Below are positions 20,822-63,117 of a stretch of 64,000 nt of DNA, one piece after another (the stretch's first letter is position 1; every line of letters starts with the position of its first letter). Both the position numbers and the translations under genes were made by a program. The stretch is from Parabacteroides sp. FAFU027. Its GTDB lineage: Bacteria; Bacteroidota; Bacteroidia; Bacteroidales; UBA7332. Under the pieces are notes generated by a model. The model ran no database searches. It had not been told where the DNA came from and saw only the letters and a program-made list of their open reading frames with translations. The DNA lies in the NCBI RefSeq assembly GCF_022808675.1, contig NZ_JAKZKV010000010.1, forward strand, positions 62,001-126,000, in the 5' to 3' direction.

Positions 20822-21136
20822 CACTCCCATTGCTTAACCTTCGGATGTCATTGTTTGCCTGACGGAAGTCATTGTTTGAGTGACGGATGCCAATGTTTCA
20901 CTGACGGAAGTCATTGTTTGACCGTCGGATGCTATTGTTTAGGTGTCGTATGCCATTGTGTCATGTGCGAAGCCCACTGTGTAATTGATTTTTGCCATTG
21001 TGTCAGTGACGGAGGTCAATGTGCAACCGTTGCATGGGACTGTATCGATGACTTTAGTCACTGTGCGACTGTCGGAATGCATTGTACAGGTTACGCAGTC
21101 CATTGTTTAAGTTTCGCATGTGAATGTGATTATATA
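20822..21136. repeat. Degenerate tandem array, 15 units of exactly 21 bp
   Basis: Fifteen consecutive 21-bp units, with no insertion or deletion, fill the space between the GH51 terminator and the murA terminator. The consensus contains CATTGTTTGAGTGACGG. Positions 8, 10 and 11 of the unit (A-N-T-G) are the same in all 15 copies; other positions vary widely, most of all in the right half. One forward frame is open throughout and would read a heptad G-x-H-C-L-x-D with Cys in every copy. Its only ATG upstream (20804) lies inside the GH51 terminator, and there is no ribosome binding site, so I do not call a gene. Confidence 0.9.
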
Positions 21137-30260: not shown

Positions 30261-30533
30261 CAGTCGTCATCCTTGCTCTTGCAGTCGTCATTCTTGCTCT
30301 TGCAGTCGTCGTCCTTGCTCTTGCAGTCGTCGTCCTTGCTCTTGCAGTCGTCATCCTTGCTCTTGCAGTCGTCATCCTTGCTCTTGCAGTTGTCATCCTT
30401 GCTCTTGCAGTCGTCATCCTTGCTCTTGCAGTCGTCGTCCTTGCTCTTGCAGTCGTCATCCTTGCTCTTGCAGTCGTCATTCTTGCTCTTGCAGTCGTCG
30501 TCCTTACTCATGCAGTCGTCGTCCGAGGTGTTG
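30261..30533. repeat. Tandem array, 13 units of exactly 21 bp, between cobU and cobT
   Basis: Thirteen units beginning CAGTCGTCATCCTTGCTC (plus strand) with no length change. Units 1-11 differ at only three sites; units 12 and 13 are more diverged and a partial copy follows at 30534. The order of variants in units 1-3 (A/C, A/T, G/C at unit positions 9 and 11) recurs in units 10-12, which points to block duplication. All six frames are open because the unit has no stop and its length is a multiple of three. Confidence 0.95.
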
Positions 30534-30563
30534 CAGTCTTTAATCAGGTGTGGTGAAAGCTCT

Positions 30564-40131: not shown

Positions 40132-40267
40132 AATAGCTGTGTTTTGGTAACAAGTAATGACTAGTCACAATGACAGCTTTCGGAATAAATGATTGCAACA
40201 AGGGCAAAAGAGGTAAATCAGTTTGCAGATGTTTCTCAGCTTTATCCTCGAAAGCTTTTGAACTAAC

Positions 40268-40440
40268 GTTGCCGTGGCAGGTCTTCTGACTTACTTCCGT
40301 TTGGGGCGGCCTTCCCGTCGCATGACAGTGGCGAAAGTTTTGCCCAAACGTTTGGTGAAGCTTACAGCAGCGGGACTGTTCAGGATTCTCACCTGATTCC
40401 CTTTTCATCCTCGACCGCGAATGCGGCTTCGGAACCAAAG
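40268..40440 (-). ncRNA. Cobalamin (AdoCbl/B12) riboswitch
   Basis: Read on the minus strand, the leader contains the conserved elements of the cobalamin riboswitch: GGGAATCAGGTGAGAATCC, ACAGTCCCGCTGCTGTAA, GCCACTG, GGGAAGGC and, at the 3' side, the B12 box region AGTCAGAAGACCTGCC. It is 137 nt upstream of the btuB start and immediately downstream of a matching promoter. It should switch off the btuB-btuG and following cob genes when cobalamin is plentiful. Confidence 0.97.
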
Positions 40441-40446
40441 CGGTTG

Positions 40447-40476
40447 CAAAGGTAAGGATTATTTTCGGAAATCAAA
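40447..40476 (-). promoter_or_regulatory. Promoter of the riboswitch-btuB operon
   Basis: On the minus strand TTTG (40476-40473) and TACCTTTG (40454-40447) are separated by 18 bp, a good Bacteroidetes -33/-7 pair. Transcription would start at about 40440, exactly at the edge of the riboswitch. Confidence 0.75.
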
Positions 40477-40564: not shown

Positions 40565-40974
40565 CTGGGTTGAAACAGGTTTTTATCCTTTAGAAAGTGA
40601 TTTTTGACCGTCGAAAATCATCCTATAAAATTATAGACCGGATTTCGGCGATTGAAATTTGTCCTATAAAATTATAGCGTTAAAATTGACCGTTGAATTT
40701 AACGCTATAATTTTATAGGCTTAAATAATTCCGTTGGAAATGCTCCTGTAATTTTATAGGCGACTTTCTGACGGTATATTTTGAGTCTGGAAAATTATAG
40801 AGGCCCTTCAAACGACAGAAAATGGCTCTATAATTTTATAAGATGGTTTTTAACCGCAAAGTTTATCTCTCAGAATTTACAGACTGCCATTCGATGGTTG
40901 AAAATTACATTCCAATTATTTAGAGCCGCATTATTCCTTCAACTTCCTGTTTTTAATCTTAAAATCACCCCTTG
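40565..40974. repeat. Degenerate tandem array, about 10 units of exactly 41 bp, between divergent promoters
   Basis: Each unit has two conserved parts. The first is GACCGTTGAAAAT-like, at 40606, 40647, 40688, 40729, 40770, 40811, 40852 and 40893, with weaker copies at 40565 and 40934. The second is a palindromic core CTATAAAATTATAG or its reverse complement, centred at 40629.5 and then every 41 bp to 40834.5, with weaker copies at 40875.5 and 40916.5. The step is exactly 41 bp each time. It is non-coding in all frames and lies between the btuB promoter and the promoter of the SpoIID-like gene. Confidence 0.9.
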
Positions 40975-52886: not shown

Positions 52887-52939
52887 AGTTTTTTTCTTTA
52901 TCAGTTAAACAAAAATGAGAATTTCAATCATTATCATCC

Positions 52940-53226
52940 TCTTGGGACGGGTTTAGGCTAAATCGAAACAGTAAAATTTATCTCTGGCAAATCCGGATGT
53001 CGGAATTTTTCGTTTTTTTCGTGCCTGGCTGATTCAGTTGTCTCCCCAAACGTTTTTTTTCGTGTCCGGGAAATTCCAAAGTCGGAAAAAAGAGTTTTTT
53101 TTGCCTCTGGCGCGCGCCAGCCTCAAAAAAAACTGTTTTTTGAGACCCGGAATCCAGCCAGAGTGGAAATTGACGGTTTATTTTGACTTCGGAATTTCCC
53201 AGGGGCAAAATTTACGGGAAAATTCC
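52940..53226. repeat. Degenerate tandem array, 7 units of exactly 41 bp
   Basis: Units start at 52940, 52981, 53022, 53063, 53104, 53145 and 53186. Each begins with a CTGG/CCGG-like motif, has a central CAGA/CGGA block, and most end in a run of six to eight T followed by CG or G (for example TTTTTTTCG). The step is exactly 41 bp. Copies are degenerate, and the first (52940) and last are the weakest. The region fills the gap between the DUF6261 start (52886) and the end of a lipoprotein gene (53246). I see no gene in it. Confidence 0.8.
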
Positions 53227-62383: not shown

Positions 62384-62385
62384 AG

Positions 62386-62458
<73 letters not shown>

Positions 62459-62557
62459 GTGTTTACGTGTGCAAAGGTAATACTTTTATTTTAAGTTGCA
62501 ACACCTTTGCGAAATATTTTCTGATTATGCTACCCCGAAGGATATTCTGGTATAAAA

Positions 62558-62584
62558 AAAGAGTATCTGAAACAGATACTCTTT
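62558..62584 (-). terminator. Terminator of tRNA copy 2 (repeated in later units)
   Basis: AAAGAGTATCTG pairs with CAGATACTCTTT and is followed on the minus strand by a T-run. The same sequence recurs at 62763-62789 and 62968-62994 for copies 3 and 4. Confidence 0.9.
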
Positions 62585-62587
62585 ACT

Positions 62588-62663
<76 letters not shown>

Positions 62664-62792
62664 ATGTTTACGTGTGCAAAGGTAATACTTTTATTTTAAG
62701 TTGCAACACCTTTGCAAAATATTTTCTGATTATGCTACCCCGAAGGATATTCTGGTATAAAAAAAGAGTATCTGAAACAGATACTCTTTACT

Positions 62793-62868
<76 letters not shown>

Positions 62869-62997
62869 ATGTTTACGTGTGCAAAGGTAATACTTTTATT
62901 TTAAGTTGCAACACCTTTGCAAAATATTTTCTGATTATGCTACCCCGAAGGATATTCTGGTATAAAAAAAGAGTATCTGAAACAGATACTCTTTACT

Positions 62998-63073
<76 letters not shown>

Positions 63074-63086
63074 ATGTTTACGTGTG

Positions 63087-63117
63087 CAAAAGTAGTGCTT
63101 TTGTTTGATCTGACAAA
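63087..63117 (-). promoter_or_regulatory. Promoter of tRNA copy 4
   Basis: TTTG (63117-63114) and TACTTTTG (63094-63087) with a 19-bp spacer match the Bacteroidetes -33/-7 consensus in full. Confidence 0.85.

Follow-up and report, generated by a model that had tools for sequence, protein, structure and literature searches.

Arrays of 41- and 42-bp units upstream of DUF6261 genes in Bacteroidales: a candidate one-gene module

Known array systems and the DUF6261 locus

Among the closest described systems, ParR of pSK41 binds 20-bp repeats, and parC, as described in PMC9426499, has iterated sites before the genes of its locus, a sequence private to each system and a spacing matched to protein assembly, in all of which it resembles the arrays described here, which lie in front of DUF6261 genes. 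However, DUF6261 loci have no recurring ParM-type ATPase, Pfam gives no match of that kind among the neighbours of the focal array, and no ParR domain was found in DUF6261 with Pfam. Moreover, parC consists of simple direct repeats, whereas the sites of DUF6261 arrays are palindromic and set in 41/42-bp units. DUF6261 arrays are also chromosomal and multicopy. Carriage of DUF6261 by plasmids or phages was rejected, as single-query searches of plasmids with the DUF6261 protein of the window (the whole stretch of 64,000 nucleotides analysed), of phages with the L029 protein and of IMG/VR with a three-sequence alignment returned no match, each being a search by which distant members would be missed. 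The iteron arrays of plasmid replication initiators have a spacing of about two helical turns and adjoin the gene of their cognate protein, and both traits are shared by the DUF6261 arrays. Nevertheless, DUF6261 has no Rep domain match, a chromosome can carry tens of candidate copies of it, and its arrays keep their period as their sequences are replaced. On the best reading, the DUF6261 module would resemble parC and iterons in its logic and belong to neither.

In TIGR-Tas, as described in PMC12045711, Tas carries a Nop domain and the tigRNAs are 36 nt long with a split spacer of 16-18 nt; the likeness lies in tandem dual-repeat arrays beside one protein gene. DUF6261 differs in lacking a Nop domain (a Pfam scan returned DUF6261 only), in its array period of 41/42 and in mismatches that have no RNA strand bias. 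From CRISPR, the arrays are set apart by degenerate units (~50% identity at one period), by the lack of recurring neighbour genes and by the lack of a PADLOC match at E<=0.001 for four DUF6261 proteins (best two values 0.009 and 0.012, from the same protein). Intergenic imperfect tandem repeats are also found in Bacteroidales as BrickBuilt, a MITE minisatellite of Porphyromonas gingivalis, which in the excerpt of PMC4596501 has one shared 23-nt unit with leader and tail inverted repeats and no linked protein family, whereas the 41/42-bp units of DUF6261 arrays are private to each locus. A literature search found no description of DUF6261 arrays, and the mention of DUF6261 that surfaced belongs to a paper titled on daptomycin resistance in Streptococcus; the set of repeat arrays in front of DUF6261 genes in Bacteroidales is thus apparently undescribed.

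The focal array and its gene

The focal array, directly upstream of a DUF6261 gene and between two minus-strand genes, spans 287 bp, i.e. 7 x 41 (Table 1). Autocorrelation bears out the 41-bp periodicity of the original prediction, with an identity of 0.496 at lag 41 where 500 dinucleotide shuffles give 0.253 (sd 0.028; z 8.7); the top identity of the shuffled array at any lag from 15 to 99 was 0.395 (200 shuffles). Under strict detection the strong core comprises 5.7 units, and unit 1 is weakly similar. The further claim that a run of six to eight T and then CG or G closes most units holds narrowly, with such runs of at least six T in 4/7 units (53013, 53053, 53095 and 53136), and the array at 40565 indeed has the same spacing (lag-41 identity 0.517) and a different sequence, as had been proposed. 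Tandem Repeats Finder detected neither of these two arrays, and Rfam returned no family match at the focal array.

Table 1. Coordinates of the array, its gene and other features of the window
Feature	Position	Strand	Remarks
41-bp focal array	52940..53226	no strand	7 units; strict core ~52984-53216; evidence: lag-41 identity
Spacer, array to DUF6261 ATG	52887..52967	minus	about 80-100 bp
DUF6261 protein gene, 245 aa	52149..52886	minus	Pfam PF19775, E 7e-19; AlphaFold model all-helical, pLDDT 89.4
Orphan 41-bp array	about 40565/40580..40920	no strand	no DUF6261 beside; cores CCTATAAAATTATAGG and reverse complement
Orphan 42-bp array	20826..21130	no strand	21-bp half units; between convergent genes
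Four tRNA-Met genes	62385-63106		near-perfect 205-bp tandem repeat
21-bp tandem repeat x13	30261-30538		92% matches; overlaps start of a 444-aa minus-strand ORF
Cobalamin riboswitch	40259-40454		Rfam RF00174, 98.5 bits; ahead of a TonB-dependent receptor gene

The T tracts had been put forward as a cause of DNA curvature. They form one arm of AAAAA-N3-TTTTT palindromes that alternate with GG..CC palindromes. The array (locus L038) has a palindrome axis at z 4.6 and a second one half a period, or 20.5 bp, away, axis 1 being the A-tract/T-tract palindrome and axis 2 the GG..CC one. The A/T tracts are phased at 10.25 bp, with a resultant of 26.6 out of 31 against 6.9 (sd 3.6) in shuffles, 0/500 of which were as high, a weak control since any 41-bp repeat is automatically in phase at 41/4. 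Taken by itself, the focal array has a weak 10.25-bp conservation peak (power 1.51). Over the 83 strong arrays analysed (45 of 41 bp and 38 of 42 bp), the median number of A/T tracts per unit is 0.81; the focal array has 1.6 and 11% of the arrays reach at least 1.5. Phased tracts are therefore not general, and curvature was rejected as the function of the class. The in-phase T tracts of the original prediction are real and a mild bend at the focal array is plausible, but curvature does not explain the class and is incidental to this array's private sequence. Common to the class are a period of 41/42 bp, symmetry of the two-fold kind, conserved positions spaced at the helical repeat and the presence of a DUF6261 gene downstream of the array.

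The same observations bear on an explanation that takes the arrays for bent or flexible tracts, selected for shape and bound by a general nucleoid protein of the HU/IHF type, DUF6261 being merely the regulated gene. The phased tracts of the focal array, the helical-repeat conservation and a period that is kept while the sequence turns over would fit it. Nonetheless, A/T tracts are not general, the period varies among loci of one genome and tracks the DUF6261 lineage, and a general protein leaves the association with one family unexplained, so we regard it as unlikely.

With regard to the protein, the focal DUF6261 scores 68.7 bits against PF19775 (curated cut-off 27), its sole match in a Pfam scan. 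AlphaFold models two DUF6261 proteins as all-helical bundles (pLDDT 86.9 and 89.4), in which no DNA-binding domain is recognisable; the predicted bundle has no DNA-binding relative that is known. As regards a ribbon-helix-helix fold, DUF6261 is the only Pfam match, the model is all-helical and no PDB match is significant: Foldseek returned nothing at E<=0.001 in the PDB, and no PDB sequence relatives were found (best E 0.88). The best matches of a VIA fold search (Z 8.5) are generic helical bundles, which count neither for nor against a fold family. The family has a median pI of 6.0. Fast evolution is seen at residues 1-12 and in the tail, and a search for a specificity hot spot found no clear one beyond these.

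Arrays at DUF6261 genes and orphan arrays

In 456 kb of the window's own genome, a scan for degenerate periodicity gave 22 matches at z>=5.5, including four at lag 21, five at lag 41 and seven at lag 42; with 16/22 matches at these lags, the two arrays of the window are part of a set. The same genome has 11 DUF6261 matches, 10/11 of which have a strong 41/42-bp (or double) array directly upstream, and the array of each distinct gene differs in sequence. On contigs C1 and C7 of G000, two DUF6261 loci ~113 kb apart recur with equal scores and array signals, which suggests that these pairs are copies in a redundant assembly (contamination 4.29%).

DUF6261 was found in 45/393 genomes of the order, of which one, a single contig, yielded as many as 43 candidates at first look, and in 5/295 genomes of a class-level sample, 4 of them from the same order. 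The loci are a non-random set, mostly top Pfam matches together with several from chosen genomes; removal of proteins below 150 aa or more than 0.93 similar reduced 110 to 104, and one was skipped as short or masked, leaving 103 unique genes. An upstream array is present at 85/103 of these (lag 41-43 in 65, lag 82-86 in 20) and a downstream one at 6/103, while 18/103 have no detectable upstream array. The arrays hold about 4-9 units each and end at a median of 98 bp from the ATG (83 arrays). Upstream of ordinary ORFs, the corresponding counts are 1/276 in DUF6261-free genomes and 6/202 in DUF6261-bearing ones, with 13/224 in the sampled parts of the window's own genome and 13/126 in G196, two genomes rich in DUF6261.

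A separate named set, drawn from Bacteroidales and other Bacteroidota contigs, has an upstream array at 17/23 DUF6261 genes. It started from 33 loci, from which L227, L240, L244, L245, L253 and L257 (duplicates, or too little upstream sequence) and 3 further near-duplicates were removed, giving 24, and one was skipped. In G413, which belongs to a different order, one of three DUF6261 genes has a clear 42-bp array, one a weaker 41-bp array and one none. A near-consensus DUF6261 gene (L062/L227) has an 87-bp repeat at its locus and no 41/42-bp array directly upstream. A conserved partner gene was also sought among the neighbours and excluded, the top flank cluster occurring at 4/148 loci; as no other family recurs, array and DUF6261 gene would make up the whole unit.

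Arrays are also found with no DUF6261 gene beside them, in convergent, divergent and codirectional gaps. Both orphans of the window are kept at orthologous places in the congeneric G002, the one at 20826 with turnover of its units. Several places in G002, on contigs C157 and C2, have arrays of the 41-bp orphan family that is marked by the core CCTATAAAATTATAGG, and the window's 42-bp orphan shares a CATTGTGCGAC-like unit with those at L010:4850-5120 and L018:5870-6240, unlike the private arrays linked to DUF6261. The orphan at L026:4260-4560 matches the L032 array at 91% identity over 408 bp, yet no DUF6261 gene is detectable in its 20-kb stretch. Orphans number ~13 in 456 kb of G000 and ~9 (41/42 bp) in 200 kb of G196, both DUF6261-rich. 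By contrast, 334 kb sampled across 20 DUF6261-bearing genomes hold 2 with a period of 41-43, and 251 kb of DUF6261-free genomes hold 2 that are weak. This genome-level co-occurrence with DUF6261 is suggestive only; the orphans could be remnants, or additional sites of the DUF6261 system.

Symmetry, turnover and a candidate reader

A palindrome axis is present at p<=0.02 in 48/83 strong arrays, the other 35 missing the cut-off, and a second axis half a period off is frequent. The axis falls between bases in 22/25 of the 42-bp arrays and on a base in 19/23 of the 41-bp ones. One array has the palindromic core CTACAAAATGTAG with its reverse complement CTACATTTTGTAG, another has GGAAACTCAGTTTCC with GGAAACTGAGTTTCC. 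Each unit contains two conserved blocks, with dips of conservation at the axes and between half-sites. The fundamental and the fourth harmonic alone form clear peaks in the conservation spectrum, the latter at 10.25 bp in 41-bp arrays (z 10.9) and at 10.5 bp in 42-bp arrays (z 7.5); 17 further arrays replicate this peak (z 4.6), with the third harmonic also at 3.1, and 21 orphan arrays have it (z 4.7) together with a 21-bp peak (z 5.0). Conserved positions thus recur every 10.25 or 10.5 bp, that is, once per helical turn, and the spacing common to the arrays amounts to about four turns of DNA.

If the palindromes acted as hairpins of RNA, G-U mismatches would be better tolerated than A-C ones on one of the strands. 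Among the mismatches of the array palindromes, GT pairs occur at 0.69x and AC pairs at 0.65x of expectation, and array by array the comparison stands at 27 to 21 (p 0.45). This lack of strand bias favours symmetric double-stranded DNA sites, which the symmetry of the arrays looks like, and RNA hairpins were rejected on this basis. Furthermore, palindrome centres are found in both orientations. A promoter just before the array was sought with the -7 box of Bacteroidetes promoters; convincing-looking boxes precede the arrays at L032, L034 and L047, but overall such boxes are about as common at the start of an array as chance would give (11/83 against ~9 expected), and this candidate was dropped. 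Alternatively, transcription of the arrays might yield RNAs, either tandem hairpins or dual guides, to which DUF6261 would bind as in TIGR-Tas or a hairpin leader, an arrangement for which an array of about 4-9 units next to a single protein gene, the two conserved blocks per unit and the boxes at those three loci could speak. Yet there is no excess of GU over AC on either strand, centres occur in both orientations, conservation tracks the DNA helical repeat, there is no Nop domain match in Pfam or Rfam match at the array, and the boxes are no more frequent than chance, all of which makes an RNA system quite improbable.

Array sequences can be exchanged at a locus that keeps its gene and flanks. 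Units are alike in 5/5 gene pairs above 90% protein identity, in 6/7 at 75-90% (gapped comparison, pairs above the 99% null) and in 11% of 35 at 40-50%, so that array sequences appear to turn over below about 75% protein identity. A stronger version, in which arrays are unrelated at 78-83% identity according to an ungapped consensus, was discarded, as gapped comparison finds likeness. At L090/L098 the array has been largely replaced between flanks that are both ~81.6% identical, with parts of the arrays alike by eye. At L051, an insert that resembles a MITE and has GAGCCTGTTT..AAACAGGCTC as its inverted ends lies at ~-300 to -105 upstream and splits the array of the L035 ortholog. The L032/L047 locus, from two congeneric species, is collinear (90.7% over 2.85 kb) and has CTAC..GTAG in 7/7 units of one array and CTGC..GCAG in 7/7 units of the other, a difference that reads as one symmetric, compensated two-base change. 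Gene conversion is a likely route of turnover, since the tract of L047 beside the gene start resembles the paralog L034.

Such exchange could also belong to a selfish or neutral satellite whose units spread through slippage, recombination and gene conversion, its place upstream of DUF6261 genes being due to hitch-hiking or to preferred insertion there. Higher-order repeats within arrays, with periods of 82-86 bp and of three units, turnover between orthologs and the orphans of two DUF6261-rich genomes are what it would produce. It sits badly, however, with the 85 to 6 excess of upstream over downstream arrays among 103 genes, with a compensated change carried by all seven units at L032/L047 and with conservation at the helical repeat, and we consider it very unlikely.

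The period, in turn, appears to follow the DUF6261 lineage, with an effect of moderate size. On a 'quick' tree of 79 proteins less than 70% identical, limited to arrays with a lag identity of at least 0.58, it changes 18 times against 26.5 (sd 2.3) with shuffled labels (0/300 as low), and pairwise concordance is 0.55 at 40-50% protein identity and 0.69 at 50-60% (16 pairs). Both periods, 41 and 42, are present within one genome, and the period is therefore not a genome-wide property.

The explanation that we favour, and that we hold to be probable by a small measure, is a one-gene module formed by an iterated, two-fold symmetric double-stranded DNA site and the adjacent DUF6261, a candidate reader that would assemble on its own array. 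The analysis shows the association of array and gene, the symmetry, the helical-repeat conservation, the lack of strand bias and the link between period and DUF6261 lineage; we infer protein binding, DUF6261 as the binder and the role of the complex alike. Points against this explanation are the lack of a recognisable DNA-binding domain, the orphan arrays, the 18 genes with no detectable upstream array, the limited concordance of period between proteins of 40-60% identity, the weak 10.25-bp peak of the focal array and the 35 strong arrays that miss the palindrome cut-off. Each 41/42-bp unit would offer two palindromic sites ~20.5-21 bp apart, so that a symmetric protein could touch the major groove on the same helix face, once in each turn, and build up over the full length of the array. 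DUF6261 is the natural candidate for this reader because no other partner is constant and the spacing can be predicted from its lineage; as the likeliest reader, it would form a nucleoprotein assembly at its own gene, and the complex might serve autoregulation and/or local anchoring or organising.

Apart from the N-terminal residues and the tail noted above, DUF6261 has no clear fast-changing recognition segment, which would be odd if private arrays were read base by base. This lack, together with rapid array turnover, fits a reading of geometry better, although the same would be expected if another protein were the reader. It is conceivable, if doubtful, that DUF6261 reads geometry more than sequence and polymerises along one face of any array with the right helical period and two-fold symmetry. 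The protein and the period would then be passed on together while the units of an array drift jointly in sequence, like the satellite DNA of eukaryotic centromeres, and a genome would hold many separately addressed, self-marking nucleoprotein sites.

DUF6261, a family of unknown function, is now tied to a DNA element in cis that escapes a standard repeat finder, and the link provides a directly testable candidate function, namely binding to its own array. Concerted satellite evolution under geometric constraint is a question that comes mainly from eukaryotic centromeres; if the DUF6261 protein sets the period while the sequence turns over, these arrays would be a bacterial, satellite-like case of it.
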